From positions 1 to 64,000 of the forward strand of contig CACIRB010000003.1 in assembly GCA_902588925.1 (NCBI GenBank): DNA of 64,000 nt. The letters run 5' to 3'. The notes under the pieces were generated by a model that ran no database searches, was not told where the DNA came from, and saw nothing but the letters and a program-made list of their open reading frames with translations. Made by a program: the position numbers and the translations under genes. This document shows, one piece after another, positions 11,242 to 55,930 of the stretch; positions within the stretch are counted from its first letter, which is position 1, and every line of letters begins with the position of its first letter. This DNA is from an uncultured Pelagibacteraceae bacterium. GTDB lineage: Bacteria; Pseudomonadota; Alphaproteobacteria; Pelagibacterales; Pelagibacteraceae.

Positions 11242-11242
11242 A

Positions 11243-13041: not shown

Positions 13042-13074
13042 AATTTGAAATATATTTATTTATAATTAAGTATT

Positions 13075-34186: not shown

Positions 34187-34552
34187 ATGAAAAAATTTGA
34201 TGAACTTATGAGTGTAGGAAGTGAAATTGAAAACATTACTGCTGAAGATGCAAAGAAAAAATTAAATGATCCTAATGTTCAATTTATTGATGTAAGAGAT
34301 AAAGATAGTTTTTCTAATGGTACAATAGGAAATGCCATACACCTGGACAGAGGATTGCTTGAATTTTATTTAGCAGAGGGAAGTCCCTTAGAAAATGATA
34401 TTTTTAAAAATAATCCAGATAAAGAGTTTGTAGTTTTTTGTGGTTTAGGCGGTCAAGGCACTCTTGCCACAAAAACAATGAAAGACATGGGTGTCAAAAA
34501 TGTTAAAAACATTACTGGCGGAATGTCTGAGTGGGATAAGTTAAAAGACTAG
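34187..34552 (+). CDS. Rhodanese-like domain protein
   Basis: VQFIDVRDKDSFSNGTIGNAIHLDRG; VVFCGLGGQGTLA (Cys at active site); GGMSEW. Confidence 0.88.
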   Translation: MKKFDELMSVGSEIENITAEDAKKKLNDPNVQFIDVRDKDSFSNGTIGNAIHLDRGLLEFYLAEGSPLENDIFKNNPDKEFVVFCGLGGQGTLATKTMKDMGVKNVKNITGGMSEWDKLKD

Positions 34553-35634
34553 TCCTTTATTAAATCTAAAACATCAATACCTATTTGCTTAAGTATATGT
34601 ATTAAGTCTATAGGTACCCAGTTTTCTCTAATTTTACCTTCATGGTGATGGTAAAAATCCATTACTCTCATAGTTACGTTTTGATTATCAGATTTGTATC
34701 CTAACCAATCATCTGATCCGTAAACTGCTTGTATGCTATGCCAGCCAGCAGTCATTGAAAAATTTCCATCACCAAGTTCACAGTAATGTCCTAGTTTCCA
34801 ATAATTTCTTTCTTTAAAAGTTTTTCTAAATGGTAACTGATGGTTATCGACAAATCCCTCTAAGTTTCTTCCAGTACCTATTCCACTTGGCCCATACCAT
34901 ATCATTTTATCATGCCAAAATTCACTTTGTGGATGATTAATTAATTTTTCTTTTAATTCTTTATCTGAATTAGTTTCTAATTCTGGCTTTATGTTCAAGC
35001 TTCTTTGCATCGTTAAAGATTGGTCTAAACTTGCTTCAGAAACTTTCATATCTTTTTCAAAATAATCTACACCATCGGTATTAATTGGGTTTAGCCAATT
35101 TCCCTCTGAACCTCTTGAAGGTTTGATTGGATTTTTACCTGTTTGAAATATCAAATCTAATAGATCGATTAAAATATAACTTTCTACTATTTTATCATTT
35201 TTCAATTCATGAACTTCACAACATTTAAGATTTACCATTTTATTAATTGGCTTTATCCCAAAAATAGGTTTTTTGAATGTGCCTGAAAGCATAGATACTG
35301 ATCCAACTTGAACTTTATCTCTAAATGTACCTCCAATGACTATCTGTTCTCTTCTCTCAATGTCTGGGAAAGCTTCAAATAGAGGTAGCCAAAATTTTTC
35401 TTTAAATGTATTTGCACCCTCAAATTCATTAACAGGATGAAAACAATTAACTTTTACATCTTTATCAAAATAATTTTCTATATTTTGACCTAATTTAGAT
35501 ATTCCACCTTCTATGATTGTTTTTAAGTAGCCTCTTACTTTTGTTTTATTATTGAAATTTTCTTCAGGTGTAATTTCTAATTTTTTTACACCATGTTGTT
35601 CTTTTAAACCTGTATCAAATTGTTGTATTGGCAT
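34549..35634 (-). CDS. SnoaL/NTF2-like protein (two NTF2-like halves)
   Basis: HPVNEFEGANTFKEKFWLPLFEAFPDIERR and GTGRNLEGFVDNHQLPFRKTF ester-cyclase/SnoaL-type patterns. Confidence 0.65.
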   Translation of the reverse strand: MPIQQFDTGLKEQHGVKKLEITPEENFNNKTKVRGYLKTIIEGGISKLGQNIENYFDKDVKVNCFHPVNEFEGANTFKEKFWLPLFEAFPDIERREQIVIGGTFRDKVQVGSVSMLSGTFKKPIFGIKPINKMVNLKCCEVHELKNDKIVESYILIDLLDLIFQTGKNPIKPSRGSEGNWLNPINTDGVDYFEKDMKVSEASLDQSLTMQRSLNIKPELETNSDKELKEKLINHPQSEFWHDKMIWYGPSGIGTGRNLEGFVDNHQLPFRKTFKERNYWKLGHYCELGDGNFSMTAGWHSIQAVYGSDDWLGYKSDNQNVTMRVMDFYHHHEGKIRENWVPIDLIHILKQIGIDVLDLIKD

Positions 35635-35683
35635 TTATAATAATTTAAATAGGGTTAATATCATAATTCAATTAGAATAACAT

Positions 35684-36628
35684 ATGGAAAATAGGTTAGC
35701 AAAATTTAATGAGTTGGTTCCAAGCACCTTGCCCTTTGTGGAGGGAAAACTCGAAGGTCACAAAGAAAGAAAAAATTATTCTATAGTTGGACCTGGTGTA
35801 GCTGAAGATAGCAAACAATTTATAAAAATTGCTATGCCTCATAGTTTTAATTTAGGTGCTGTGTCAGCATTACCCAAAAATGGATCGGGTTTACATAGTC
35901 ACACAACTGCAGAAGTATTTTTAATTTATTCTGGTAGATGGAGGTTTTATTGGGGAGCGGAAGGAAAAGATGAAACAATCTTGAATGCTGGGGACATAAT
36001 TTCAATGCCAACTAACATGTTTAGAGCATTTGAAAACGCAGGCGATGAAGAAGGATTAATTTTTGTTGTTTTAGGAGGGGATGATCCTGGAATAATAACT
36101 TGGGTACCAAGTGTTTTAGAAAAAGCAAAAAAAACTGGTATGGCGCTTTTAAATGATAACTCGTTAATTGATTTATCTATTAATAAAATTCCAGAAGGAA
36201 AAACAATTCTTAAGCCTATTTCTCAAGAAGAAATTAAAAAATTTGATAACTACAAACTAAATCAACTAGAAAAATTTATATGTAAAAATAGTGAAAATTC
36301 AAAATATGAAAATAAACTAAATGAGAATATTTATTTAATTCAAATTATTGGAAACAAATTTGAAAAAAAAGAATTCTCTCCAGTAATAAAACAAGATACC
36401 GGATTTAATCTTTCGATTTTAAAATCCAGTAAAGGTCATATAACTAATTTAAAATTTGAAAAACCTACAATAATGTTTTCAAGGACTGGAAAATGGGAAA
36501 TTATGATTGATGATTTTCAATGTATTTTAAATCCTAAAGATACAATTTCTATTCCAATTAATTCAAATGTTAATATTAAAATAGATGAAAATGAGTATTG
36601 TTACTTGAATTGTGTAACACAAATCTAA
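35684..36628 (+). CDS. Bicupin-like protein
   Basis: N-terminal cupin GSGLHSHTTAEVFLIYSGRWRFYWGAEGKDETILNAGDIISMPTNMFRAFEN; second cupin-like beta region at C-term. Confidence 0.75.
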   Translation: MENRLAKFNELVPSTLPFVEGKLEGHKERKNYSIVGPGVAEDSKQFIKIAMPHSFNLGAVSALPKNGSGLHSHTTAEVFLIYSGRWRFYWGAEGKDETILNAGDIISMPTNMFRAFENAGDEEGLIFVVLGGDDPGIITWVPSVLEKAKKTGMALLNDNSLIDLSINKIPEGKTILKPISQEEIKKFDNYKLNQLEKFICKNSENSKYENKLNENIYLIQIIGNKFEKKEFSPVIKQDTGFNLSILKSSKGHITNLKFEKPTIMFSRTGKWEIMIDDFQCILNPKDTISIPINSNVNIKIDENEYCYLNCVTQI

Positions 36629-37590
36629 TGAAGGGTTTTGATCCAAAATATAAAAACTTTCCTGATTACATACTAAAAATAACTAAACAAATTTGGGAAA
36701 ATAAAGATGTTGAGTCTATTGGTCAGTTTTATAGTGATAACATTCCAGTTAGATCACCGTTTGGTGTCACATATGGAAATAAACCTGTAATTGATGCTAC
36801 CTATGCAACATTAAAAGAATTTCCTAACAGGCAACTGCTTGGAGAAGATGTGATTTGGAATGGAAATGATGATGTCGGTTATCATTCGTCTCATAGAATT
36901 TTAAGCAAAGGAACACATCTTGGTGATGGTTCTTATGGCAAACCAACTGGTAAAGATATTTATTATAGAGTAATTGCTGATTGTGCATGCAAAAATAATC
37001 AAGTCTATGATGAATGGATTGTTCGTGATCAAGGTGCGATGGTAAGACAAATAGGATTTACACCAAAAGATTTTGCTCAAATGCTTATAGATAAAGAAGG
37101 TGGTTTTGAAAAAGCAAAACAATTATTTAATTCAAATTCTGAGATGAATTCAGATTACAAACAAGGCATTGTTCCTGATGATTCTGCTGGAGGTAAATAC
37201 TCCAAAATATTGACAAATATCTTCAAGGATAATTATGATTTTTCAGATTATGCAAGAGCTGCAACTATTTATTGGCCTGGAAATAAAATTGGACATGGAA
37301 GAGAAGATATAATCAAATTTTGGAATGCTTTAAAGAATACTTTGACCGATATAAATTTTTCTATAGAGCACATTGGTTATTTGGAAGAACCAGATAAAAA
37401 TCCTAAAGCGTCAATAAGATGGTTTCTGGAAGGTAATCATTCTAAAGACACTGAAGAATTTGGAAAAAATTCAAATAAAAATATTTTTATAATGGGTATA
37501 AACCATGCAGAAATAATTCATGGAAATGTTATAAGAGAATGGGTTTTGTATGATGAGGTTGCAATTTGGAAACAAATTTTAATGAAATAA
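36628..37590 (+). CDS. SnoaL/NTF2-like protein (two halves)
   Basis: VRSPFGVTYGNKPVIDATYATLKEFPNRQLLGEDVIWNG; second half YWPGNKIGHGREDIIKFWNALKNTLTDINF; start at TAATG overlap with the bicupin. Confidence 0.65.
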   Translation: MKGFDPKYKNFPDYILKITKQIWENKDVESIGQFYSDNIPVRSPFGVTYGNKPVIDATYATLKEFPNRQLLGEDVIWNGNDDVGYHSSHRILSKGTHLGDGSYGKPTGKDIYYRVIADCACKNNQVYDEWIVRDQGAMVRQIGFTPKDFAQMLIDKEGGFEKAKQLFNSNSEMNSDYKQGIVPDDSAGGKYSKILTNIFKDNYDFSDYARAATIYWPGNKIGHGREDIIKFWNALKNTLTDINFSIEHIGYLEEPDKNPKASIRWFLEGNHSKDTEEFGKNSNKNIFIMGINHAEIIHGNVIREWVLYDEVAIWKQILMK

Positions 37591-37593
37591 ATT

Positions 37594-38721
37594 ATGAGTA
37601 AAATTAAAACAACACATGTAGGAAGTTTACCAAGATCAAATGAATTATCCGATCTCTTATTCAAGAAAGATCAAAAAGAAAAAATAGATTTAAATCAATT
37701 TGATGAGATTGTTCAAAGAGATGTAGATAATATTGTTAAAAAGCAAATAGAGGTTGGAATTGACTATATTAGTGACGGTGAAATGTCTAAGATTAGCTAT
37801 GCAACTTATGTTAAAGATAGAATTGATGGCTTTTCAGGAGAGAGTGAAAGAAAAGCGCCAAAAGATTTAGATGACTTTCCATCTTTTAAAGAAAGAATTG
37901 CAAGAACAGGTGGTACTCCTACTTACACAAGACCTTGTTGTACAAGTGAATTAAAAATTAAAGACAAAACCTCTTTAACAAAAGATATTAATAATTTTAA
38001 GCAATCATTAGAAAAAAATAATCACAAAGACGCTTTTATGAATGCTGCTTCTCCAGGAGTTATTTCAGCTTTCTTACCAAATAAATTTTATAAAAATGAT
38101 GATGAATATTTAGAAAATTTATCTAACCTAATGAAAGATGAATATGAAGAGATTACATCAAATGGATTAAAACTTCAGTTAGATTGTCCAGATTTAGCAT
38201 TAGCGAGACACATGACTTTTAAAGATTTATCTGAAGGAGAATTTTTAATTAGAGCAGAAAAACAAATAGAATGTTTAAATAATGCAATTAGTAATATCGA
38301 TAGCTCCAAAATAAGAATGCACATATGCTGGGGTAATTATGAAGGACCCCATTTACACGACATTGGACTAGAAAAAATTATGCCAATAGCTTTAAAAGCT
38401 AATGTACAAACTTATTTAATTGAGTCTTCTAATCCAAGACATTCTCATGAGTGGCAAATTTTTGAAAATTTAAAAATTCCAAAAGATAAAATAATTGCTC
38501 CTGGGGTCATTGACTCTACTACAAACTTTGTCGAACATCCCGAGGTTGTAAAAAATAGAATTGTAACTTACTCAAAAATAATTGAAAAAGATCAGCTAAT
38601 TGCTGGAACAGATTGTGGCTTTAGCACCTTTGCTGGCTTCGGAAATGTTGATGAAAATATAGTTTATAAGAAACTAGAGTCTTTGGTGCATGGTGCTGAA
38701 CTTGCGTCAAAAGTGATTTAA
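37594..38721 (+). CDS. Cobalamin-independent methionine synthase (MetE C-terminal)-like / UROD-superfamily methyltransferase
   Basis: TTHVGSLPRSNEL; DYISDGEMSKISY; Zn ligands HICWGN and GTDCGF. Confidence 0.82.
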   Translation: MSKIKTTHVGSLPRSNELSDLLFKKDQKEKIDLNQFDEIVQRDVDNIVKKQIEVGIDYISDGEMSKISYATYVKDRIDGFSGESERKAPKDLDDFPSFKERIARTGGTPTYTRPCCTSELKIKDKTSLTKDINNFKQSLEKNNHKDAFMNAASPGVISAFLPNKFYKNDDEYLENLSNLMKDEYEEITSNGLKLQLDCPDLALARHMTFKDLSEGEFLIRAEKQIECLNNAISNIDSSKIRMHICWGNYEGPHLHDIGLEKIMPIALKANVQTYLIESSNPRHSHEWQIFENLKIPKDKIIAPGVIDSTTNFVEHPEVVKNRIVTYSKIIEKDQLIAGTDCGFSTFAGFGNVDENIVYKKLESLVHGAELASKVI

Positions 38722-38806
38722 TTTCCTCTTTAATTTAAACTACGTAATAGATATAGTTTTTGAACTTAAATTATAATTAAACAATTAATATAAAGAGAGA
38801 AAACAT

Positions 38807-40027
38807 ATGAGAAAAATACTAGTTAGTTTGTTGTTTTTACTTTTTGGAACTTCTGCTTATGCAGATTGTAACATTAAAAGTGGTTCAATAAATATTTTGG
38901 CTAATGATTTTCCTGCATTAAGAACTTTCGTTGAAACTTCTAAACAATGTAAAGGAAGCGCAGATTTTAAAGTGACTCATTCATCAGAGCACAATAAAAT
39001 CGCAGTGCCAGCTCTTACTGCAAATCCATCTGAATTTTCAGCTAGAATTGCAGCAAACAGTTCAATCGTTCCTTTAATGAACCAAGATTTAATAAGACCT
39101 TTAGATGATCTTGTTAAAAAATATGGAAAAGGAATTCAAGACTCTCAATTGATCACAATTGATGGAAAAGTAATGGCTGTAGCATTTATGGCTAACACTC
39201 AACACTTATACTACAGAGAAGATGTTTTAAAAGATCTTGGTATAGCTGTTCCAAAAACATATGAAGAGGTAGTTGCTGCTTCTGAAAAAATTAGAGCTTC
39301 AGGAAAAATGCAATATCCGTATGCCGCTGCTTACAAAGCTGGTTGGAACTTAGCAGAAGAGTTTGTTAACATGTATATTGGTCATGGTGGTGAATTCTTT
39401 AAGTCTGGAAGTGCAGAACCAAATGTAAATAATGCAAAAGGTGTTGCTACTTTAAACATGCTTAAAAAATTATCTGAATTAAGTAACCCAGATTATTTAA
39501 CACATGATAGTGAAGCTATTAAAGTTGAGTGGGAATCTGGAAATGTTGCTTTAATGACATTGTGGGCTTCTAGATCAGGTACACTTTTAGATGATGAAGG
39601 TGATCCTAATATTACTAAAGCTACAAAACTAACTGGACCAGCTACAGTTGGAGGTGGAAATATCCCTGCTGCAACTTTATGGTGGGATGGTTTCACACTT
39701 GCAAAAAACAGATCTGACGCTGATGCAGAAGCTACATTTAGAGCTTTAGCTCACGCAGCATCAAATAAGAAAATGGTTGCTGACGCTGCTGACCAAGCTG
39801 TTTGGTTGGTAGAAGGATTTGTTCCAGGACCAAAATCTATTGGTGTAATTGAAGCTGTAAAAATGGGCGCAAAACCATATCCAATGTTACCGCAAATGGG
39901 TTTAATGCATGGTGCATTAGGAAGTGAGATTGTTGAGTTTTTACAAGGTAAAGAATCAGCTGAACAAGCATTGAAAGATGTTGAGGCTGCTTACACTAGT
40001 AAAGCTAAAGAACAAGGCTTTCTATAA
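38807..40027 (+). CDS. Sugar-type ABC transporter substrate-binding protein (family 1)
   Basis: Signal peptide; YYREDVLKDLGIAVPKTYEEVVAASEKIR; EWESGNVALMTLWASRSG. Confidence 0.88.
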   Translation: MRKILVSLLFLLFGTSAYADCNIKSGSINILANDFPALRTFVETSKQCKGSADFKVTHSSEHNKIAVPALTANPSEFSARIAANSSIVPLMNQDLIRPLDDLVKKYGKGIQDSQLITIDGKVMAVAFMANTQHLYYREDVLKDLGIAVPKTYEEVVAASEKIRASGKMQYPYAAAYKAGWNLAEEFVNMYIGHGGEFFKSGSAEPNVNNAKGVATLNMLKKLSELSNPDYLTHDSEAIKVEWESGNVALMTLWASRSGTLLDDEGDPNITKATKLTGPATVGGGNIPAATLWWDGFTLAKNRSDADAEATFRALAHAASNKKMVADAADQAVWLVEGFVPGPKSIGVIEAVKMGAKPYPMLPQMGLMHGALGSEIVEFLQGKESAEQALKDVEAAYTSKAKEQGFL

Positions 40028-40037
40028 AATCTAATCT

Positions 40038-40064
40038 TTAAGTGGGGACTTGGTCCCCACTTAA
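40038..40064 (+). promoter_or_regulatory. Perfect 12-bp hairpin between sugar SBP and permease genes
   Basis: TTAAGTGGGGAC-TTG-GTCCCCACTTAA; no T run follows. Confidence 0.75.
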
Positions 40065-40076
40065 CAAAAAATTTCA

Positions 40077-41105
40077 ATGCCTAATAAAACTTTTTTTTGG
40101 TTTTTTTTACCAACAGGATTAGCAATGGTCCTATTTATTGGGCTTCCCATCATTTCTACAGGAGTTCAATCTTTTTACGCTCAGCATGATCAAGTAGTTA
40201 AAGAGGTCAAAAAATGTGATCCATTTGGTTGTACTGTTTCAATTGTAGTCGACAATGAAGAAACTACAAAAATTAGAGAAGCAAAACCTCTTGGAAAGTT
40301 TAATGGTTTCGGTACGTATGTAGACAGAAACCATTTGGCAACAGAAGAAATAAAAAAATTTTGGAATGAAACGGAAACTTTTGGTGAATTTGTCGATCAA
40401 GTAACAAATCTACCATTTTATAAGGCACTAATATTTACATTAACTTATTGTATATTTGTTACACCAAATGTCTTGTTATTAGGTTTTATTATTGCCTTGA
40501 GTTTAAACGCAATCTCAAGAAAAATTAGAGGTCCTTTAATCTTTGGTACTATTTTACCAATGATTGTAACTCCATTAGTTGGATCTTTAGTATTATTCTG
40601 GATGATAGACTCTCAAGGAATAATTGGAGCCAACATTCAAAATTTGATGAATGATCCATATTTATCTTTAAAATCCTCTAAAACTCTTACTTGGATAACA
40701 ATTATAATATATGGAATTTGGCATCACTCCCCTTTTGCATTCGTAGTTTTCTATGCTGCACTTCAAACAGTACCTCAGGAACCTATTGAAGCTGCAATTA
40801 TTGATGGTGCTTCAAGATTTCAGAGAATAAAACATATTGTACTACCTCATATTTACCCGGTGGTAACATTTGTTGCATTAATATCATTGATGGACAATTT
40901 TAGAGTTTTTGAACCGATTATAGGTTTTAGTGCCGAGGGTAGTGCGCAATCTCTTTCATGGTTAATTTACGATAACCTAGTAAATGAAGAAGTAATTTTG
41001 TTTGGTTCGGCTGCAGCAACATCGATGATGACAATCATTGGGATAGCTATTTTGCTTGCACCTGTATTAGTTAGAACATGGAAAGAATTTAAAACTGCGA
41101 GATAA
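40077..41105 (+). CDS. Sugar-type ABC transporter permease (MalF-like)
   Basis: EAAIIDGASRFQRIKHIVLPHIYPVV EAA motif; extra periplasmic segment after TM1. Confidence 0.88.
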   Translation: MPNKTFFWFFLPTGLAMVLFIGLPIISTGVQSFYAQHDQVVKEVKKCDPFGCTVSIVVDNEETTKIREAKPLGKFNGFGTYVDRNHLATEEIKKFWNETETFGEFVDQVTNLPFYKALIFTLTYCIFVTPNVLLLGFIIALSLNAISRKIRGPLIFGTILPMIVTPLVGSLVLFWMIDSQGIIGANIQNLMNDPYLSLKSSKTLTWITIIIYGIWHHSPFAFVVFYAALQTVPQEPIEAAIIDGASRFQRIKHIVLPHIYPVVTFVALISLMDNFRVFEPIIGFSAEGSAQSLSWLIYDNLVNEEVILFGSAAATSMMTIIGIAILLAPVLVRTWKEFKTAR

Positions 41106-41107
41106 GT

Positions 41108-41989
41108 ATGGATTATGGGTTAGATAAAAAAACAAATACTTTAAAAACATTTAATACCATATTTATTATTTCTTGGTTGTTAGTTGCATGTTTTCCATTC
41201 ATCTGGACTTTTTGGGGATCATTTAAAGTAAGAGCAGATTTTTTTTCAAGATCAGATTGGTGGTATGCAATTTCAGCTTTCAATACATTAATTGAAACTG
41301 GTGAAAAGTTTACGACAAATGCTTATCATGAAGCTTGGTTTGAAGGAGAATTTTGGAAAGCATCAAAGAATACCATAATCGTTACTGTATTTGTCGTTAG
41401 TATTTCATTGTTTTTAGGAACTTTAGGAGCATACGCTCTTTCAAGATCAACTGAGAAATATGCATTTTGGATTTTAATGGCAGCTTTAATCTTTAGAGCT
41501 ATGCCACATATAACTTTAGTATCAGGTTATCTATTTCCTTTTTTTGAATTACAAATATGGGGAATACTTCCAACAACTATTGTTGTTTTGGTTGCTATTA
41601 ATCAACCGTTTACATTATGGTTGCTATATTCATTTTTTAAAACAATACCAAAAGAACTTGATGAAAGTGCGTTGATTGATGGATGTTCATATTTTCAAGC
41701 ATTTAGACATATCATAATGCCAGTCATGTGGCCCGGGGTTATTACTGCTGGATTATTTAGTTTAATGCTTGCTTACAATGATTTCACTGTAACGGCTTTG
41801 CTTCTTAATCAAGAAAATCATACAATGGTTCCAAAGATACAAAGTTATTTAGGAACTAACCAACACGAAGGTAATCTAATGTGGGCAGTATCTGCTGTAG
41901 TGTCTGCAACAGCTCCATTGTTTATGCTAGTAATGTTCTTCCAGAGACAAGTCATCAGTGGTTTAACTACTGGGGCTGTAAAAGGTTGA
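41108..41989 (+). CDS. Sugar-type ABC transporter permease (MalG-like)
   Basis: ESALIDGCSYFQAFRHIIMPVMWPGVI EAA motif. Confidence 0.9.
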   Translation: MDYGLDKKTNTLKTFNTIFIISWLLVACFPFIWTFWGSFKVRADFFSRSDWWYAISAFNTLIETGEKFTTNAYHEAWFEGEFWKASKNTIIVTVFVVSISLFLGTLGAYALSRSTEKYAFWILMAALIFRAMPHITLVSGYLFPFFELQIWGILPTTIVVLVAINQPFTLWLLYSFFKTIPKELDESALIDGCSYFQAFRHIIMPVMWPGVITAGLFSLMLAYNDFTVTALLLNQENHTMVPKIQSYLGTNQHEGNLMWAVSAVVSATAPLFMLVMFFQRQVISGLTTGAVKG

Positions 41990-46639: not shown

Positions 46640-47602
46640 TTATAGTCCTAACCAACCGTCTACAGTTGATTTGTTTGCTTCCATCCAAGCTCTTGCTACA
46701 TCAGCTGGATCTTTTTTCTCAACTGAAACTGCATAAGCCATTGCAGAAACATCATCAGCTGTTAATTGAAAATTCTTGAAGAATTCTACAATTGCTGGTG
46801 ATTGACTTTCTAAAGAGGTAGCCCAACCGATTTGGATTTGCTTAAGAGCATCTTTTGATGCAACATAAGATTTCTTGTACCAGTCAGCATCTGCTTTAGG
46901 TTGAATCATTTTATATTTTGCAGGATCATATTTTGGTTCTGTTAACATCACTACGTCAGCCATTCCCCAAATTGCATGAGGTTTGTAACAATAGAATGCA
47001 TAACCTTCACCTTTTTTGATTGAGTCTAGTACTCTAGCATTTTTAACTGCTTCAGCAGCTCTAACTGCTTCGATACCAGCATCATATAAACCATAGTCTC
47101 TTAATTTAACTTGGTTAACATTTGCAGAAGCCCAACCATCAGCACCAATCCAAAACTCACCTTTACCATTTCCATCGCTGTCCATTGCTTTAACAACTTC
47201 TGGTCTAGCTAAGTCTTCAATTGCTGTGATATTCATTTTTTTAGCAAATTGTTGAGAAACACAGTAACCTTGGTTTCCTTCATATGGTTTGCTACTTAAT
47301 TTTAAAGTTCCTTTTGGAACTAAATCATTAGTGTAAGCTTCTTGGTTTGGTAACCAAATATCAGGGTGAACATCAATTTCACCTTTTCCTCTATCAATTG
47401 CTGCATAAATTGCAGTATTGTTTCCAGGAACTAGTTCAGCTTCACCACCCATTTTATCTGTGACTACTGCAGCAAGTAAATTTGCTATAGCAGTTGCACC
47501 TGTCCAACCTGGATCCCCGATTTTAACTTTTTCTGCATTTGCAGAGAAGATTGCTAAAATTGAAATTAATCCAGCTACAAGTGTAGTTTTAATCATTTTC
47601 AT
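46640..47602 (-). CDS. Glycine betaine/proline-type substrate-binding protein (ProX/OpuAC family)
   Basis: KVKIGDPGWTGATAIANLLAAVV; IDVHPDIWLPNQ; YCYKPHAIWGMADVVMLTEP. Confidence 0.9.
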   Translation of the reverse strand: MKMIKTTLVAGLISILAIFSANAEKVKIGDPGWTGATAIANLLAAVVTDKMGGEAELVPGNNTAIYAAIDRGKGEIDVHPDIWLPNQEAYTNDLVPKGTLKLSSKPYEGNQGYCVSQQFAKKMNITAIEDLARPEVVKAMDSDGNGKGEFWIGADGWASANVNQVKLRDYGLYDAGIEAVRAAEAVKNARVLDSIKKGEGYAFYCYKPHAIWGMADVVMLTEPKYDPAKYKMIQPKADADWYKKSYVASKDALKQIQIGWATSLESQSPAIVEFFKNFQLTADDVSAMAYAVSVEKKDPADVARAWMEANKSTVDGWLGL

Positions 47603-47710
47603 AATTTCTCCTTAATTATTTAAAATTAAAGTCTAACGTGGATTTAGAACGGGAGTCAAAGAAAATAGATATGCTATTATTGCAATATAGATTAGAACAA
47701 TTATAAGAAA

Positions 47711-48121
47711 TTAGTCTGGATTTGAGGTAAGTGTCTTGATTTCTAAAATGTTCTCGTTAGGGTCTTTAACAAAAAAAGTCTCTTGCTCGTATTTTGTTCC
47801 TTTAAATCTTAAATAAGGCTCATCGTAATATTTTGTTCCACTGTCTTTTAATCTTTGTTTAAGAGCATCAAAATCTTTTCTCGACAAGTGAACTCCAAAA
47901 TGAGGAACTGATACATTACCCATGTCAACGTCATGTCTTTCATTATCCAATTTATGTTCACTCTTATGAAGAGTAAGTTCATTTCCCCAGAAATCTACGT
48001 CTGCCCATTCTTGAGCTGAATTATCAAGTCTGCATCCTAAAGTTTCGCTATAAAACTTTTTCGCAACCTCAAGATCACCACATGGGATTGCTAAATGAAA
48101 ACAATTAGTATTCTTATACAT
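47711..48121 (-). CDS. VOC (glyoxalase/bleomycin resistance) family protein
   Basis: FHLAIPCGDLEVAKKFYSETLGCRL; FFVKDPNENILEIK. Confidence 0.9.
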   Translation of the reverse strand: MYKNTNCFHLAIPCGDLEVAKKFYSETLGCRLDNSAQEWADVDFWGNELTLHKSEHKLDNERHDVDMGNVSVPHFGVHLSRKDFDALKQRLKDSGTKYYDEPYLRFKGTKYEQETFFVKDPNENILEIKTLTSNPD

Positions 48122-48201
48122 ATAAACCTCTTTTAATTGAGCAATTAACTACTATATAAGGCATATAATTTTTTAATCAACACCAGCTAAATTAAATAAA
48201 A

Positions 48202-48786
48202 ATGAGTGATTTTTTACAATCCATAATTGATAGAGACCCTGCAGCAAGGTCTAAGTTAAGTTTAATTTTAACTTATCCAGGTGTCAAAGCAGTATTCTTC
48301 CATAGAGTGGCTAACTTTTTTAGCACTGCTAAGTTTCATTTAATTGCAAGAATCATATCTCAATTATCGAGGTTCTTAACTGGAATTGAAATACATCCAA
48401 ATGCAAAAATTGGAAAAAATTTATTTATTGATCACGGTATGGGGGTTGTTATTGGAGAAACATCTGAAATTGGTGATAACGTAACTATTTATCATATGGT
48501 AACTTTAGGTGGAATTGCTCCAAGTATTAATTCAAATGATCAACGAAATTTAAAAAGACACCCGACTATAAAAGAAGATGTTGTAATTGGTTCAGGTGCA
48601 CAAGTTTTAGGACCAGTAGTTGTTGGTAGAGGTGCAAGAATTGGAGCAAACGCAGTTATTACTAAAGATGTTGAAGAAAATTCTGTGATGGTTGGAATTC
48701 CAGCAAGAAGTGTTGGAATAGCTGATAGTGAATTTAAACCTTACGGAATTACTCCTGATAGTGATAAAAAATCAGATAATGAATAA
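48202..48786 (+). CDS. cysE: Serine O-acetyltransferase
   Basis: [41 protein letters not shown] left-handed beta-helix hexapeptides. Confidence 0.93.
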
Positions 48787-49780
48787 TACACAAAACGATT
48801 TTATTTCTGGGATTGGAAATACTCCTCTAATTAAATTAAGAGCAGCATCCGAAATTACTGGTTGTAATATTTATGGTAAAGCTGAATTTTTAAATCCAGG
48901 TGGATCTGTAAAAGATAGAGCTGCACTTGCATTAATTAAAGATGCACAAGAAAAAAAGCTGATCTCTAAAGGAGGAACTGTTGTTGAAGGTACAGCTGGT
49001 AATACTGGAATTGGTTTGGGTCTTTTAGGAAATTCTTTAGGTTACAAAACTATAATTGTCATGAACGATAATCAAACTCAGGAGAAAAAAGATTTACTTA
49101 GAAATCTTGGAGCTGAACTAAGACTAGTTCCACCTAAGCCTTATAAAGATGACAATAATTTTGTTAAAGTTGCTGCAAGACTAGCGGATGAGTTAAGACC
49201 AACAAATAATAACGGTGTAATTTGGGCTAACCAGTTTGATAATAAAGCAAATGCTAAAGGTCATTATGAAGGGACAGGACAAGAAATTTGGGAACAAACT
49301 GAAGGTAAAATAGACGGTTTTGTCTGCTCTTCTGGAACTGGAGGAACTATTTCTGGTGTAAGTAATGCTCTTAAAGAAAAGAACAAAGATATAAAAATTT
49401 ATTTATCAGATCCAAAGGGTTCTGCGCTATACAATTATATAAAGAATGGTGAACTTAAGTCAGAGGGTGGTTCAATTACTGAAGGGATTGGCTCAAGTAG
49501 AGTAACAGCTAATTTTGGTGAAGCTAAAATTGATGACGCATATTCAATTGATGACCATGAAGCTCTGCCTATTCTTTATGATTTAATTCAAAACGAGGGA
49601 TTAAGTTTAGGAACTAGTTGTGGAATAAATATTGCAGGAGCAATTAGAATGGGAAAAGAATTAGGGCCAGGAAAAACTATTGTAACTATTCTTTGTGATA
49701 GAAGTGACAAATACGCGACCAAAATGTTTAATAAAAAATTTTTAGAAGAAAAAGGTTTGCCGATACCTAATTGGTTTTAA
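48779..49780 (+). CDS. cysK: Cysteine synthase A family (PLP)
   Basis: [32 protein letters not shown]-Lys; [10 protein letters not shown]; start ATG overlaps cysE. Confidence 0.93.
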
Positions 49781-50193
49781 ATATAAATTTTATCAGCTAA
49801 TCCGTAAGTAAGAATAGCACTTAAAATTGTAAGTACTCCAGCAGCTATTACACCTTCACTGTTAGTCTTTTCAGTGTGTCCAAGTTTATTTATGTAAATG
49901 GTATAAATACCAAATATAAAGTACATTAAATTTTGAACAAATACTAAATTAAAGAATGCCCAAGTTCCATTTACTCCACCGTCCCTAACGAACATAATAT
50001 AAAGAGCCATTAAGAAAGACCCAACAAAAGGAGCTCCAAAAAATCTTGTAATCACAGCTGCCGAATGATCGATGTTATATTGATCCATAAAACTCTTTGT
50101 TCCAACTATAGCTCTAAAAGCATAAACAGCGTAAACAAGGAAATGAACAATAAAAATTATTAGATAAATAATTCCATTAAATTTTTCGATCAT
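49777..50193 (-). CDS. Conserved membrane protein of unknown function
   Basis: 138 aa, four predicted TMs. Confidence 0.6.
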   Translation of the reverse strand: MIEKFNGIIYLIIFIVHFLVYAVYAFRAIVGTKSFMDQYNIDHSAAVITRFFGAPFVGSFLMALYIMFVRDGGVNGTWAFFNLVFVQNLMYFIFGIYTIYINKLGHTEKTNSEGVIAAGVLTILSAILTYGLADKIYI

Positions 50194-50350
50194 AATTATT
50201 TATTATCAAATATTTACGTTAAATAAAACAGCATAATCAAGATTTTTTACCCTCTAAAATTGCATAACTGTCGCGCGCTATAAACACAAGAGACTCCTAA
50301 ACAATTATGAGAGAATGTTAGATAAATTAAGTTAATTTATAGGAGTAATA

Positions 50351-50749
50351 ATGAGAAAAATTTTATTTGTTATGATGTTTTTAACTATTTCAAATTATTC
50401 TTTGGCGGATGGACATGTGAAGAGAATTATATCCACTAGTGAAACTGGCATGGGTAACGAAATAGTATACCCCTCAGGTAAAGCGATGATAACAGCTTTT
50501 GAATTTAACGTTCCTGTTGGGGGTCCAGTTGTTCCTCATACTCACTCTTTTCCAGTGCTAATAATGATCCAACAAGGAGAGATTGAACTTACCCAAGGCG
50601 GTAAAAGCTATATCTATAAAGCTGGAGATGCATTTGTAGAAGATGTAGGTGTAGTACATGAGTCGAAAAATATTGGGAATGTTCCTGTTAAAGCGATTGT
50701 AGTTGCGATAGGAGTTGAAGGTCAAAAAATTATGACACCAGTTAAATAG
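50351..50749 (+). CDS. Secreted small cupin-domain protein
   Basis: Signal peptide; PVVPHTHSFPVLIMIQQGEIELTQGGKSYIYKAGDAFVEDVGVVHES. Confidence 0.85.
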   Translation: MRKILFVMMFLTISNYSLADGHVKRIISTSETGMGNEIVYPSGKAMITAFEFNVPVGGPVVPHTHSFPVLIMIQQGEIELTQGGKSYIYKAGDAFVEDVGVVHESKNIGNVPVKAIVVAIGVEGQKIMTPVK

Positions 50750-50788
50750 AAAGAGAAAATGAAAAAAATAATTTATGGAGGATAAAAT

Positions 50789-51079
50789 ATGATTATAAAA
50801 ATAGAGGAAAATATAAAATCTTTTTCAGCATGGAGAGATATGGTTGAAGATAATGCTGAAAAAATTAAAGGATTTGGTGCAACCATTATTTTTGCTGGTG
50901 TATCAAAAGAAGATGCTTCAAAATTTACAGTAATTGTAAAATATGCAACTATGGAGGGGTTTGAGGCTTTTAAAAATGATAAAGAACTTCACGCTGCAAG
51001 AGCTGCAGCTGGGGTTGATTTAGATTCTGCAAAAATCACTCCCATGGATGGGGACTTTATGGAAAATTTTTCAGGATAA
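50789..51079 (+). CDS. Small dimeric alpha/beta-barrel-like protein
   Basis: 96 aa, good RBS (TGGAGG), ferredoxin-like fold pattern; operon member. Confidence 0.6.
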   Translation: MIIKIEENIKSFSAWRDMVEDNAEKIKGFGATIIFAGVSKEDASKFTVIVKYATMEGFEAFKNDKELHAARAAAGVDLDSAKITPMDGDFMENFSG

Positions 51080-51095
51080 TAAAATAGGAGGAAAA

Positions 51096-51380
51096 ATGGA
51101 AAAAGAAATGCTAGTGGTAGCAAAGTTAAAAGAAGGTACTTTTGAAAAATTTATGGGATTTATGCAATCTCCTGAAGGACTTGCTGAAAGGGCTAAAGTT
51201 GCTGTGGTTGAAAAAACAATTGGAACTGTAACTCCAGACAAAAGTACTGTAATGTTTAAAATATTTTGTACTGATGAAGCTGCACTTCATAAGTTTATAG
51301 AAGGTACAGAGGTATCAAAGCCAATAATGGATGAAGTGTTAGACAGTTATTCAATATACGATTTAACTAAGGTTAAATAG
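51096..51380 (+). CDS. Small dimeric alpha/beta-barrel-like protein
   Basis: Start at MEKEML after AGGAGG; same size class as upstream gene. Confidence 0.6.
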   Translation: MEKEMLVVAKLKEGTFEKFMGFMQSPEGLAERAKVAVVEKTIGTVTPDKSTVMFKIFCTDEAALHKFIEGTEVSKPIMDEVLDSYSIYDLTKVK

Positions 51381-51418
51381 AAAGCTGAGGCTACACATAC
51401 TGACTAATCTCTGCTAGA

Positions 51419-51442
51419 ATTAGTAACTAAATCATTAGTAAC
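51419..51442. repeat. Two direct ATTAGTAAC repeats (15-bp period)
   Basis: ATTAGTAACTAAATCATTAGTAAC immediately upstream of AAGGAGG. Confidence 0.5.
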
Positions 51443-51453
51443 AAGGAGGAAAA

Positions 51454-51804
51454 ATGGCTGGAATAGAAGTAAAAAGTTTTGATAAAGCAGATGAAGTAAA
51501 TGATAAATTTAATAACGCTAAAATTGAAGCGGTCAAAGTTGGAAATCAAAGATTGATGAAACTTACCTTGCAACCTGGTTGGCAATGGTCAAAAGACATA
51601 AAGCCAACAGTTGGTGGCGACAGCTGTCAAGCTACACATCTTGGTATAATTATCTCAGGTGCTGTTTGTGCAAAACATAATGATGGAACTGAACTAACTT
51701 ATAAAGCTGGTGATGCATATTCGATACAACCAGGTCATGATGGATGGGTTGTTGGAGATAAACCAGCAGTAGTATATGAATTTCATGGAATGTGGGGTGA
51801 GTAA
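51454..51804 (+). CDS. Small cupin-domain protein
   Basis: CQATHLGIIISGAVCAKHNDGTELTYKAGDAYSIQPGHDGWVVGDKPAVVYEF. Confidence 0.82.
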   Translation: MAGIEVKSFDKADEVNDKFNNAKIEAVKVGNQRLMKLTLQPGWQWSKDIKPTVGGDSCQATHLGIIISGAVCAKHNDGTELTYKAGDAYSIQPGHDGWVVGDKPAVVYEFHGMWGE

Positions 51805-52127
51805 TGTCTAAATTTTATGTAATTGGAAAAGCAAGTCCTGAGTTATTAAAAAAAATGCATGCTGACCCTGCTGCAGATAGAGGTGCAGTGATGAAATCCA
51901 TGTGTGATAGCTTAGGAGTTAAAGCAATAAGTTATGAGTGGTTAAGAGGACGTTTTGATGTTCTTTTTTGTGTAGAGGGGGACTATGAAAGTGTTCTTGC
52001 AATGAAAGTAACCGTTCTAAATAGCGGAATGATGTCGGATCTGATGGTTCATGAAGTATTTGACTACAACAGTGCATTTAAAAAAGCCTCTGATGCATCT
52101 AAAAGTTACAAGAAGCCAGGTGAATAA
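51804..52127 (+). CDS. GYD-domain-like small protein
   Basis: GRFDVLFCVEGDYESVLAMKVTVLNSGMMSDLMVHEVFD pattern typical of GYD proteins; ATG overlaps upstream stop. Confidence 0.6.
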   Translation: MSKFYVIGKASPELLKKMHADPAADRGAVMKSMCDSLGVKAISYEWLRGRFDVLFCVEGDYESVLAMKVTVLNSGMMSDLMVHEVFDYNSAFKKASDASKSYKKPGE

Positions 52128-52417
52128 TGTCAGCTGGTTATGCAATATTTAATATCAATGTTACTAATCCAGAAAATTATAAACATTATATTGAACAAGT
52201 TGTATCAGTAGCTGAGAAGTTTGGAGCTGAATACATTGTAAGAGGAGGAGAAAATCAAGTGATAGAAGGAGTTTGGCAACATCCGAGAACTGTAGTTATG
52301 AAATTTCCCTCATATGAAAAAGCTTTGGAATGGTATAACTCAGAGGAATATCAACCAATTAAACAAATTCGATTAGATAACGCTGAAACTAATGGGATAA
52401 TAATAAAAGGAGTATAA
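52127..52417 (+). CDS. DUF1330 family protein
   Basis: GYAIFNINVTNPENYKHYIEQVVSVAEKFGAEYIVRGGENQVIEG...RTVVMKFPSYEKALEWYNSEEYQPIKQIRLDNA. Confidence 0.9.
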   Translation: MSAGYAIFNINVTNPENYKHYIEQVVSVAEKFGAEYIVRGGENQVIEGVWQHPRTVVMKFPSYEKALEWYNSEEYQPIKQIRLDNAETNGIIIKGV

Positions 52418-52421
52418 AATT

Positions 52422-52742
52422 ATGTCTATATTAGAAAAATATAGTGCTGCATTAAAAAATAAAGACGAAGCTACAATGAATGATTTGTTGCATGATGATT
52501 TTAAATTCACAATGCATAAATCAGGAAATGTTTTAACTAAAGGTGATGTTATTAAATGGGCTATGAGCGGTGACATTAATCAAGATAAGGCAAGAATTGT
52601 TTATGAAAATGATGAAGTTGGAATTCATCATGCATTTGTAACATTCAATGATGGAAATGTTGAAGCGGTAATGGCAGTTTATAAATATGACAATGGAAAA
52701 ATTGTTAGTTTAGAAACTGGTGCTACTCCAATGCCTAAATAA
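52422..52742 (+). CDS. SnoaL/NTF2-like small protein
   Basis: YSAALKNKDEATMNDLLHDDFKFTMHKSG. Confidence 0.75.
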   Translation: MSILEKYSAALKNKDEATMNDLLHDDFKFTMHKSGNVLTKGDVIKWAMSGDINQDKARIVYENDEVGIHHAFVTFNDGNVEAVMAVYKYDNGKIVSLETGATPMPK

Positions 52743-52753
52743 TTATATATATT

Positions 52754-52793
52754 TAGCGGGATTTCATTTAATATCATTAAATGAGTCTCGCTA
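52754..52793 (+). promoter_or_regulatory. Long hairpin enclosing the start codon of the first SMR-like gene
   Basis: TAGCGGGATTTCATTTAAT-atc-ATTAAATGAGTCTCGCTA, about 18 bp with G.U pairs and one bulge; ATG 52781-52783 lies in the 3' arm. Confidence 0.65.
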
Positions 52794-53113
52794 CTTCATA
52801 CTTGTTCCTAGGTGTTGCTGTATTCCTAGGAGTTACCTCTAATAGTTTTGCTAAAAGTGCGGAAGGCTTTACTCTTCTTGTTCCAAGTATAATTACAGCA
52901 ATTACAATTGTCTTATGCATGTATGCACTTTCACTGGTGATGAAGAATATACCAATGGGTATCACTTACGCTTCGTTTGCAGGATTAACAATCATTGCAA
53001 CAGTTATAGTAGGTGTAATCAAATATAACCAAGTTCCAAATCTTTACTCCATAATTGGATTAGCATTTATAATTATTGGAGTTTTAATGGTTAATTTGTT
53101 AGGTAGTAAATAA
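52781..53113 (+). CDS. Small multidrug resistance (SMR)-like membrane protein lacking the Glu14 equivalent
   Basis: 110 aa, 4 TM, AKSAEGFTLLVPS...IPMGITYASFAGLTI...IIGVLMVNLLG. Confidence 0.82.
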   Translation: MSLATSYLFLGVAVFLGVTSNSFAKSAEGFTLLVPSIITAITIVLCMYALSLVMKNIPMGITYASFAGLTIIATVIVGVIKYNQVPNLYSIIGLAFIIIGVLMVNLLGSK

Positions 53114-53114
53114 C

Positions 53115-53450
53115 ATGAAGCCTCTTATAGGATATTTATTTTTAGCTAACGGTATAATTTTTGGAATAGCTTCAAATAGTTTTGCTAAAATTTCTGAAGG
53201 TTTTACAAAGCTAACTCCTTCAATTTTATGTATCCTTTTTATGTGTATTACAATGTTTTCAATTGCAAAAGCTATGCATGCAATACCTGTTGGATTTGCT
53301 TATTCAATTTATAGTGGCTTAACAGTAACAGGTGTTGTTCTTTTTGCTGTATTAAAATTTAACCAAGTTCCTAATATTTATGGAGCTATAGGAATTATTC
53401 TAATTATTATTGGTGTAATAATGGTTAATTCTCTTGGAAAATTAAATTAA
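53115..53450 (+). CDS. Small multidrug resistance (SMR)-like membrane protein lacking the Glu14 equivalent
   Basis: 111 aa paralogue of the upstream SMR: AKISEGFTKLTPS...IPVGFAYSIYSGLTV...IIGVIMVNSLG. Confidence 0.82.
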   Translation: MKPLIGYLFLANGIIFGIASNSFAKISEGFTKLTPSILCILFMCITMFSIAKAMHAIPVGFAYSIYSGLTVTGVVLFAVLKFNQVPNIYGAIGIILIIIGVIMVNSLGKLN

Positions 53451-53464
53451 AATAACTTAATTTT

Positions 53465-55930
53465 TTAATTTACGTTTGTTTTTAAGTAGCTCAATATTGA
53501 ATTACTTCCACTTAGCATAGCCTCAAAGAATTCAAAAGACTCAGCATCATCAATTTCTGAAAAATAATCGTGAATACATTGTTGTTCATTTACTAATTTT
53601 TCATTATCAGTTTCACTTATAAAACTCATCCAGCCCCATTGATTTAGTAGTCTGGTACCACATTTACCTTGAATATTTTCACGATGTCGAAATAATGGCA
53701 TAATGGCATCTTGTCCTGGTTCCTCTCCTATATAAACCACAAGCATTTGATCATCAGTCTCAAACTTTCTTTTATAAACCATTGCCTCATCCAATATAAT
53801 TTTTTTATTTTTTGTATTGGTTAAATTTCCATTGATAATTGATTTATATAATTGATCCTCTTTTTGTCGCTTTGGTTTAATGGGATTTGTATTTGATGTG
53901 AAATTTACATCATTTGATTTAAGCTTAAATGTTCCATTTTCAAAATTGAAGATTGAAAAATTTTCTTCTTTCGAGTCTAAAATTGATTCATTCAATTCTA
54001 ATTTAGCTATTTGCTTTTCAGGATTTTTCAAATAATCTAAAATAGAATTTGTACCAGCCAAAATAGTCTCAAACAATTCCAAGGACTCAACGTCATCTAT
54101 TTCTGCAAAATAGTCGTGAATACATTGTTGGATTTTTGCAAAATTTAAATTGCTAGTCTCACTTACAAAATTCATCCAACCATATTCAATAAAATTGAAC
54201 CCATTGAATAATGTGTTACATTTTTCTTTAATACTTTGACTGTGTCTAAATAGAGGTAAAATAGCATCTTCATTTGAACTCTCTCCTATATAAATAGATA
54301 AAATCTGATGGTTCATCTCTTCAAATGAATCCTGGTAAACCAATGCTTCATTAAATTTAATTTTTTTATTTTCCTCAGTTATCAAATTTCCCTTAATAAA
54401 AGCTTTGTATAATTCATGATCATTTTGTTTTTTTGGCTTAATAGGATTTGTGATCGATGCAAATTTTACATCATTTGATTTAAGTTCATATCTTCCACTT
54501 GCATTTTTATTAAAAATTTTAAATTCAGAAAATCTATATTTTTTTTCATAATCCTTTGGTTTTTCAGATAATTTTTTTATCCAAAGGTTCTCTCCTTCTG
54601 ACATTATATTTGCATTAAAAATTTCAAAAGCTTGAATATGATAGTATAAGCTTAGCCACGGGTATACTTTAATTTCATGTGGTGTAAATTTTCCATTTAA
54701 CCACTCTGGATGTTTTTCTGAAACAAATCTTATAGACCAGTTTATAAAATCATCTTTATTTCTTATCCAATTTTCTTCTAGAGCCTCTTCGTATCCCTTT
54801 TTACCACCATGTTCATATACGGTATGCTTTTGATGAGTCTTAAAAGGTTTTCTTCCACAACTCGCTGCACCTATTGCTTTTTTTGCGATATGCTTTGAAA
54901 TAGTAATATCTTCATATTGTTTAAAAAGTACCTCATAAGCATCCGATATTGTTTTTCCATGTCTCGTTTTGTAATCTAATAAATCAAAGCTAGCTAATCT
55001 CAAAAGCTCAACATTCATGGAGAATAGTTTGCTTGTATCCCAAGTATAGCCTAAGGCTTTACATCCTTTTGCAGATAACGGGACGAAGAAACCTTTATCA
55101 TTAGTCATACTTAAAACATAATCTAAATCCCATAAACCTTTGGCCCAAAGTTCTTTGTCTTGTGACACAATTGCTAAAGCCAGTTCTGCAGAGGCAAACC
55201 GAAGTCTAACAGTTCCACAATTATTAACTTTGTGTTTTTTTCCACTCAATTTCATTGGATTATCAATTGGACAAAGTTTTGTTCTACTACGATTGCCATC
55301 TCTATCAAGTCGTTCGATCATCGCTTTATTTTTAAAATAGTTTTGGATAGTTTTATGCTGATCTTCTGTGTAATTAAACTGATCATAATTAACTGCATAA
55401 AATGTTACTAGAGGAGAAAGAACTCCCCATAACTGATAATCTCTAGGATTAAAATTATCTTTGCCTGAATTTTCATAAACCCATTTGTCTTTATCTGCAT
55501 TTGCTATATTAAAAATTATTTTCTCATGTAATTTTATTCCGCCTTCAAAATCTATAAGTGCATAATCCCTTAAAGCACCTAAACATCTTTTAAATACTTC
55601 CTCCTGAATTTTTGGAGTGGTTGGTACTTTGAATTCAATAATAACGCTTGTACAAAAGTCTTTAGTTAATTTTTTTCCATCTAATTCATCTTTCCAAACA
55701 TAAGAAGTGTAATGCCAGTTATTAGCCATTACATTTGTTCGATAATATTTGTATCTTTCATAATCTTTTATAATTCTATTTATTTTGGGAAGTGGAACTT
55801 TGAGAAGCTCACTAGATTTTACATGATCATCCATCATCTCTTTTGCTTCATCTGCATAAATCACCTCAGATGCAAGTGAATTTATGAAATTAAATAAAAA
55901 TAAAAAAAAGATGATTAAAAATTTAAACAC
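53465..55930 (-). CDS. Large secreted protein: alginate-lyase (AlgL/PL5)-like N-terminal alpha-helical domain plus two tandem copies of an uncharacterised C-terminal domain
   Basis: Signal peptide; NNCGTVRLRFASAELALAIVSQDKELWAKGLWDLDYVL...FVPLSAKGCKALGYTWDTSKLFSMNVELL; internal duplication visible by eye. Confidence 0.6.
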   Translation of the reverse strand: MFKFLIIFFLFLFNFINSLASEVIYADEAKEMMDDHVKSSELLKVPLPKINRIIKDYERYKYYRTNVMANNWHYTSYVWKDELDGKKLTKDFCTSVIIEFKVPTTPKIQEEVFKRCLGALRDYALIDFEGGIKLHEKIIFNIANADKDKWVYENSGKDNFNPRDYQLWGVLSPLVTFYAVNYDQFNYTEDQHKTIQNYFKNKAMIERLDRDGNRSRTKLCPIDNPMKLSGKKHKVNNCGTVRLRFASAELALAIVSQDKELWAKGLWDLDYVLSMTNDKGFFVPLSAKGCKALGYTWDTSKLFSMNVELLRLASFDLLDYKTRHGKTISDAYEVLFKQYEDITISKHIAKKAIGAASCGRKPFKTHQKHTVYEHGGKKGYEEALEENWIRNKDDFINWSIRFVSEKHPEWLNGKFTPHEIKVYPWLSLYYHIQAFEIFNANIMSEGENLWIKKLSEKPKDYEKKYRFSEFKIFNKNASGRYELKSNDVKFASITNPIKPKKQNDHELYKAFIKGNLITEENKKIKFNEALVYQDSFEEMNHQILSIYIGESSNEDAILPLFRHSQSIKEKCNTLFNGFNFIEYGWMNFVSETSNLNFAKIQQCIHDYFAEIDDVESLELFETILAGTNSILDYLKNPEKQIAKLELNESILDSKEENFSIFNFENGTFKLKSNDVNFTSNTNPIKPKRQKEDQLYKSIINGNLTNTKNKKIILDEAMVYKRKFETDDQMLVVYIGEEPGQDAIMPLFRHRENIQGKCGTRLLNQWGWMSFISETDNEKLVNEQQCIHDYFSEIDDAESFEFFEAMLSGSNSILSYLKTNVN

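Follow-up and report, generated by a model that had tools for sequence, protein, structure and literature searches.

A variable cassette of tiny genes at the cysE-cysK site of SAR11 genomes carries SMR-like proteins lacking the central glutamate

Nine tiny genes behind cysE and cysK

We analysed a group of tiny genes at positions 50351-53450 of a 64,000-nucleotide stretch of contig CACIRB010000003.1, the whole of which is called the window below. The nearest named records to this DNA are Pelagibacteraceae single-cell genomes, and the window therefore belongs to SAR11 (Pelagibacteraceae). An earlier sequence-only reading had proposed nine tiny genes running in one direction at this place, and all nine open reading frames (ORFs) were found there on the plus strand, although a tenth member, the minus-strand gene TM138, had been omitted. 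The larger conserved locus in the window comprises cysE-cysK, then the inverted TM138, then the tiny-gene cassette, whereas the usual arrangement in the genus places the cassette directly 3' of cysE-cysK. The features are as follows, with residues of the small multidrug resistance (SMR) proteins numbered as in EmrE and DABB denoting the dimeric alpha/beta-barrel fold.

48202-48786, plus strand: CysE-type serine O-acetyltransferase, the upstream anchor (ORF named from its sequence by inspection)
48779-49780, plus strand: CysK-type cysteine synthase, the fixed left anchor (80-100% identity in 28 genus genomes)
49777-50193, minus strand: TM138, orphan helical membrane protein (AlphaFold2 pLDDT 87)
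50262-50294, plus strand: conserved upstream element GCATAACTGTCGCGCGCTATAAACACAAGAGAC, presumed promoter or operator region (conserved in loci with divergent TM138)
50351-50749, plus strand: cupA, small cupin (Pfam Cupin_2, 3.9e-13; median dN/dS 0.14)
50789-51079, plus strand: dabA, DUF3764-like DABB protein (DUF3764, 5.5e-5; median dN/dS 0.08)
51096-51380, plus strand: dabB, orphan DABB-fold protein (no Pfam family; start at 51096 as in relatives)
51454-51804, plus strand: cupB, second small cupin (Cupin_2, 3.7e-4, below cut-off)
51804-52127, plus strand: GYD-like DABB protein (GYD, 3.1e-6, below cut-off; with relatives)
52127-52417, plus strand: DUF1330 protein (DUF1330, 5.2e-32; PDB 2fiu, 2.7e-16)
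52422-52742, plus strand: SnoaL/NTF2-like protein, the most widespread soluble member (DUF4440/SnoaL, 3.1e-6; SnoaL_2)
52781-53113, plus strand: SMR1 (F63 type), Glu14-less (PF00893, 4.8e-16; Gly codon 52829-52831)
53115-53450, plus strand: SMR2 (Y63 type), Glu14-less (PF00893, 4.6e-16; Gly codon 53163-53165)

The family labels given earlier were upheld by Pfam matches above cut-off for cupA, DUF1330, SnoaL and both SMR proteins, but those for dabA, cupB and GYD were sub-threshold, and dabB matched no family. The DUF1330 protein scored 110.5 bits against a gathering threshold of 23 bits, whereas dabA ended just under the DUF3764 threshold (23.7 versus 24.0 bits) and the GYD-like protein under that of GYD (27.6 versus 31.4 bits), and neither is counted as a family member. 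By inspection only, cupA has an N-terminal signal-like stretch and the HxH...H cupin residues; among the relatives of cupB, some that lie on plasmids from other bacteria bear a cupin annotation. In SnoaL, residues H24, D25, D26, H32, E62, N63, E65, H70, E98 and T99 are invariant. PDB sequence searches with cupA, cupB, SnoaL and GYD returned no match.

For dabB, the guessed fold proved right but the start did not (51096 instead of 51048). AlphaFold2 modelled dabB with a pLDDT of 95.7, and the best PDB matches were DABB/antibiotic-biosynthesis-monooxygenase proteins, the nearest solved structures including antibiotic-biosynthesis monooxygenases (ABM), LsrG, NIPSNAP proteins and the plant olivetolic acid cyclase. 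A ferredoxin-like DABB fold is confidently predicted for dabB from this model. The predicted fold is that of the known DABB proteins (ABM, LsrG, olivetolic acid cyclase, NIPSNAP, DUF1330, GYD and DUF3764), to which genes 2, 5 and 6 are tied by family resemblance. Unlike these, dabB lies outside any Pfam family, and several DABB families occur here within one exchangeable operon.

The nine ORFs are real genes because pairwise comparison with relatives gave median dN/dS values of 0.03-0.38 for all of them, a sign of purifying selection. The strong AGGAGG sites noticed earlier were confirmed, with at least 5 nt of this motif in place in 28.8% of cassette genes versus 6.4% of flanking genes. The enrichment is limited to the tiny soluble genes, with strong Shine-Dalgarno sites at 83% of dabB and 97% of cupB genes but only 0.7% of SMR genes. 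The two gene overlaps, described as ATGA type, are of the TAATG type (51804 and 52127).

Gene-by-gene turnover across the genus

The cassette was seen at its fixed site in nearly all genus genomes examined, at well over 100 loci, and the recurrence expected for a conserved neighbourhood was thus observed; SnoaL, counted independently of locus retrieval, was found in 93 of the 113 genus genomes of 90% or higher completeness. Gene content was surveyed at 120 loci whose cysK genes all differ and whose cassettes are complete. Many loci were retrieved via dabB, DUF1330 or SnoaL, so the percentages for these three are inflated, and the simple script used for ORF calling ignored anything below 65-70 aa, so that very small genes may have escaped it. 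Cassette size ranged from 2 to 15 genes, with a median of 10, and 88 gene orders were distinguished. The genes come from roughly 20 families, comprising DABB-fold proteins, SnoaL, cupins, TM138 and orphans, and one or two SMR-like proteins usually stand at the end of the cassette. SMR proteins were present in 96% of loci, SnoaL in 92%, dabB in 87%, TM138 in 78%, c37 in 77% and DUF2798 in 72%. The middle of the range was occupied by DsbA/HCCI (47%), DUF1330 (46%), c38 (45%), c50 (42%) and c97 (37%), and the lower end by cupB (28%), GYD (21%), SnoaL2 (19%), TPR (18%), dabA (17%) and cupA (7%). TM138 is a same-strand member of the cassette in many relatives and inverted in the window; it had no family above cut-off in Pfam or NCBIfam and no PDB fold match in a Foldseek search.

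The sequence-only reading had taken the nine genes as successive steps of one undescribed pathway, whose SMR pair would export or import a metabolite. An uncharacterised conserved set is indeed present, and co-directional genes, tight spacing and a recurring neighbourhood are what such a pathway would produce. However, most members are missing from most loci, as the frequencies of cupA, dabA, GYD, cupB and DUF1330 illustrate; the exact window set was seen in no other locus displayed; and the SMR proteins lack Glu14 and often occur as a single type, as described below. Because of this turnover of genes, a fixed nine-step pathway does not fit, and we consider it improbable.

Individual families have come and gone many times. 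On the cysK tree, the minimum number of presence changes was 26 for both cupB and c97, 20 for c38, 16 for DUF1330, 13 for both c50 and GYD, and 12 for DsbA/HCCI, which is below the numbers for shuffled labels (about 23-40), yet many for one locus. DNA comparison of the window with its nearest relatives located single-gene insertions and deletions on gene boundaries. The window DUF1330 gene is a clean single-gene insertion with breakpoints at 52127 and 52402-52421, and the segment 52127-52421 is absent in loci L036, L042, L043, L054 and L058. One additional gene each separates cupA from dabA and the two SMR genes from each other in locus L054, and SnoaL from SMR1 in L036. A second DUF1330 copy (57% identical; G000:C2:1136-1423, and loci L020-L028) lies in a different conserved context, where in relatives it often adjoins a 170-aa CysE-like acetyltransferase.

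Pairwise distances of the flanking genes correlated with those of cysK at r 0.56-0.71, and GYD was intermediate (0.51), whereas the correlation was weaker for c37 (0.09), DUF1330 (0.23), c50 (0.23), SnoaL (0.25), SnoaL2 (0.27), TM138 (0.33) and dabB (0.38). The combination of variable content and conserved flanks is that of a genomic island or hypervariable region. A shared intergenic linker, AATAGAAAG, found at 9% of tiny genes versus 0.3% of flanks, was dropped as a candidate recombination signal because shuffled sequence already gave 6%.

Between SnoaL and SMR, some strains have a 2-hydroxychromene-2-carboxylate isomerase (HCCI)-like protein, a CopI-like cupredoxin or a TPR protein. The three are nearly exclusive, with only 3 of 82 loci holding two of them, but in a small test the exclusion between DsbA and TPR was non-significant once corrected for relatedness. 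The DsbA-like gene (DsbA/HCCI), which is not in the window, matches the isomerase structure PDB 2imd (1.4e-13), but no naphthalene-type pathway was seen near the locus.

The most frequent soluble DABB protein of the locus, dabB, was present in 3 of 289 class genomes; outside the genus, it was found in two genomes that we take to be HIMB59-like, where dabB and SnoaL are grouped with cupB or with cupB and c50. A trio of DUF3764-like, DUF1330 and SnoaL genes occurs in another alphaproteobacterial family. One HIMB59-like genome (G319, locus L249) has a separate cluster of SnoaL-like, SnoaL2, DUF3764-like and c78-like tiny genes, and such groupings are therefore not confined to the cysK site. As for viral carriage, no dabB was found in IMG/VR and no GYD in phage records; other members were not searched.

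The main rival to any shared function is an insertion hotspot, in which unrelated accessory genes pile up behind cysK by tolerated recombination between conserved flanks. The 88 gene orders, the gene-by-gene turnover and the discordant gene histories would all follow from such a hotspot, and hypervariable regions have been described at other places in SAR11 genomes (PMC2217521). It accounts less well for the constant, small pool of families and size class, the single strand, the common upstream element, the strong Shine-Dalgarno sites, the purifying selection, the frequent core, and the fact that other alphaproteobacteria have some of these families grouped together. We judge this explanation unlikely, although it is the strongest of the competing ones. 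The hypervariable regions HVR1-4 (PMC2217521) resemble the cassette in having variable content with many unknown genes at a fixed site between conserved flanks, but the cassette is small (2-15 genes), forms an operon-like unit of tiny single-domain proteins and is exchanged gene by gene. HVR3 is the bhmT/osmC region, unlike the site behind cysK, and the main text of the paper (PMC2217521) was not found to name cysK, cysE, cupin or multidrug genes. As far as the papers show, the known hypervariable regions are other loci than the cassette.

An upstream element and the position next to cysteine synthase

A conserved element precedes the cassette in two forms. With a divergent TM138 it reads GCATANCTGTCGCGCGNTATAAAC..GAC (50262-50294 in the window), and with cysK directly upstream it reads GCATANCWG...TGTAAYAAAAC..TTACA. 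Pattern searches found each form at most once per genome and at the cassette locus only, with zero control matches; the GCATAACTGTCGCGCGCTATAAACACAAGAGAC-type element occurs singly in the window genome and in one relative, each time at the cassette locus. An Rfam scan of 47500-54500 gave no match, and the element is therefore not a known RNA family. Scans for sigma-70 promoters and terminators performed no better than on shuffles. The TGTAAC..GTTACA repeat with its T residues in cysK-adjacent loci could simply be the cysK terminator. Since the second form may partly be this terminator, we only infer a promoter or operator role for the element.

The fixed position directly behind cysE-cysK, on the same strand in most loci, and the direct succession of cysE, cysK and cassette that most loci of the genus show, could mean that the cassette is part of cysteine or sulfur metabolism, is expressed with cysE-cysK and acts on sulfur compounds. 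However, the HIMB59-like genomes carry the cassette away from cysE-cysK, as does G357, whose cassette (L180; dabB-c38-c50-c37-TM138-SnoaL-DsbA-DUF2798) does not adjoin these genes and whose Glu-less SMR lies elsewhere in the genome (C1:200286). Furthermore, the inverted TM138 intervenes between cysK and the cassette in 39 of the 120 loci, and cysK and cysE were not induced under sulfur limitation in HTCC1062 (PMC5069961). There may be a link to cysteine metabolism, but a weak one, and we give a dedicated sulfur function little chance.

SMR-like proteins without the central glutamate

Both window proteins belong to the SMR family, with PF00893 scores of 59.5 bits each against a cut-off of 23.7. 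Nevertheless, the position of EmrE Glu14 is Gly in all 197 locus-type SMR matches, and that of the binding-site Trp63 is Phe or Tyr throughout, which gives an F type and a Y type; the membrane-spanning parts of both are free of conserved acidic residues. The tyrosine switch (EmrE Y60) is kept in 202 of 202, and Asn is invariant at EmrE position 18. The GXG fulcrum of the third transmembrane helix (EmrE 65-67) is altered, G65 being mostly kept and position 67 being Thr or Cys in aligned members. Depending on how duplicates are collapsed, there are 152 or 140 distinct locus-type sequences. A class-wide search found Glu14 in nearly all other SMR proteins read, the exceptions with Gly being the genus and one HIMB59-like genome, and five canonical SMR proteins elsewhere in five SAR11 genomes retain Glu14 and Trp63.

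The central Glu is essential and carries protons in Gdx, Qac and polyamine SMR proteins, whereas lipid SMR proteins often have Asn there and have been suggested to be uncoupled (PMC9574504); YvaD is a known SMR protein without Glu14 (PMC2716321). The locus-type proteins share length, PF00893 membership, the Tyr60 switch and, in many loci, side-by-side genes with EmrE, Gdx and MdtIJ, but differ in the Gly at Glu14, the Phe/Tyr at Trp63 and the altered fulcrum. With the lipid-type ArnE/ArnF and Bacillus YvaD they have in common the loss of the central Glu, for which uncoupled transport has been suggested in the lipid type. Unlike ArnE/ArnF, they are nearest to Qac by sequence, have Gly and not Asn, carry the invariant Asn at position 18, and have no lipid-modification genes seen nearby; SMR1 had no match to the ArnE/ArnF models, and SMR2 reached 18.9 and 16.8 bits against cut-offs of 99 and 92.

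An efflux locus for drugs or quaternary ammonium compounds, combining a proton-coupled SMR pump with detoxifying enzymes, would accord with the PF00893 score and with the best NCBIfam scores, which are to Qac models. These scores, however, are far under the equivalog cut-off (80.6 versus 160 bits), Glu14 and Trp63 are both lost without a substitute acidic residue in the membrane, and canonical SMR proteins exist elsewhere in related genomes. A proton-driven cation pump does not fit proteins from which Glu14 is missing, and we regard such an efflux function as highly improbable.

Paired exporters or importers of the ordinary SMR kind, as first suggested, are likewise not what the locus encodes. 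Both SMR proteins lack Glu14, and of the 126 loci with SMR hits, 71 had both types, 32 the Y type only and 23 the F type only, giving 55 single-type loci. An obligate antiparallel SMR1/SMR2 heterodimer appears unlikely from the sequences because the Lys/Arg bias is near zero in both types, not opposite as in paired SMR proteins, and because single-type loci occur.

Other features of the window

Directly behind the cassette, at 53465-55930 on the minus strand, lies a gene for an 821-aa exported-looking protein that was not at this place in the relatives read; it contains an internal duplication (53517-53942 versus 54063-54500, about 69% DNA identity). Inspection of 34549-41989 showed further SnoaL-like and cupin proteins (34549-35634, minus; 35684-36628, plus; 36598-37590, plus), grouped with an ABC sugar-type transporter and a MetE-like protein (37594-38721); this group, too, looks like an uncharacterised small-molecule locus. 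At 8499-13602, also by inspection, an apparent AdoMet decarboxylase-spermidine synthase fusion (8499-9539) stands beside methylthioadenosine salvage genes.

A proposed modular operon of small-molecule proteins

With a probability of roughly 0.5, we favour a modular accessory operon in which enzymes or binders for small molecules work independently of each other, are exchanged as single genes and are accompanied by an uncoupled, Glu-less SMR facilitator. The fixed site behind cysE-cysK holds one co-directional, operon-like cassette with a locus-specific upstream element, in which tiny genes of about 20 families are exchanged singly around a frequent core of SnoaL, dabB, TM138, c37 and the Glu14-less SMR. 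The tiny soluble proteins would be strongly translated, stand-alone enzymes or binders with DABB, NTF2-like and cupin folds, to which some strains add an HCCI-like glutathione S-transferase, a TPR protein or a CopI-like cupredoxin. Small reactive organic molecules may be bound by the soluble members, or isomerised, cyclised or oxidised by them. Having lost the acidic residue to which cations and protons bind, the SMR proteins could provide a passive membrane path that lets a non-cationic molecule equilibrate, and strains might exchange members to suit the compounds they encounter.

Several points weigh against this modular operon. We infer its biochemical function, and the DABB, NTF2 and cupin folds cover many chemistries. 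A functional link between the members is only presumed, the relatedness-corrected co-occurrence tests being too small to decide the matter, and three cassette genes do follow cysK distances (DsbA/HCCI, r 0.92; cupB, 0.61; c38, 0.59). A narrower proposal, which we hold only tentatively, is a dedicated SAR11 plug-in metabolic operon with one upstream element, a small core, interchangeable single-domain enzymes and a new Glu-less SMR subtype through which a neutral or anionic metabolite would pass by uncoupled facilitation.

We found no description of the locus in the open-access papers searched, subscription journals being mostly outside this coverage. What is new is a locus hypervariable at the grain of single genes and a group of Glu-less SMR proteins, both being of kinds already known.

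SAR11 bacteria are among the most abundant cell groups in the ocean and have streamlined genomes. Such a streamlined lineage keeps this operon in nearly every genus genome examined while its content turns over fast. If the cassette does handle small organic molecules, it would give direct access to the differences between SAR11 strains in the dissolved molecules with which they interact. The about 140-150 distinct SMR proteins with a uniform Glu14-to-Gly replacement, together with canonical paralogues in related genomes, provide a natural experiment for studying how the smallest transporters are coupled to protons.

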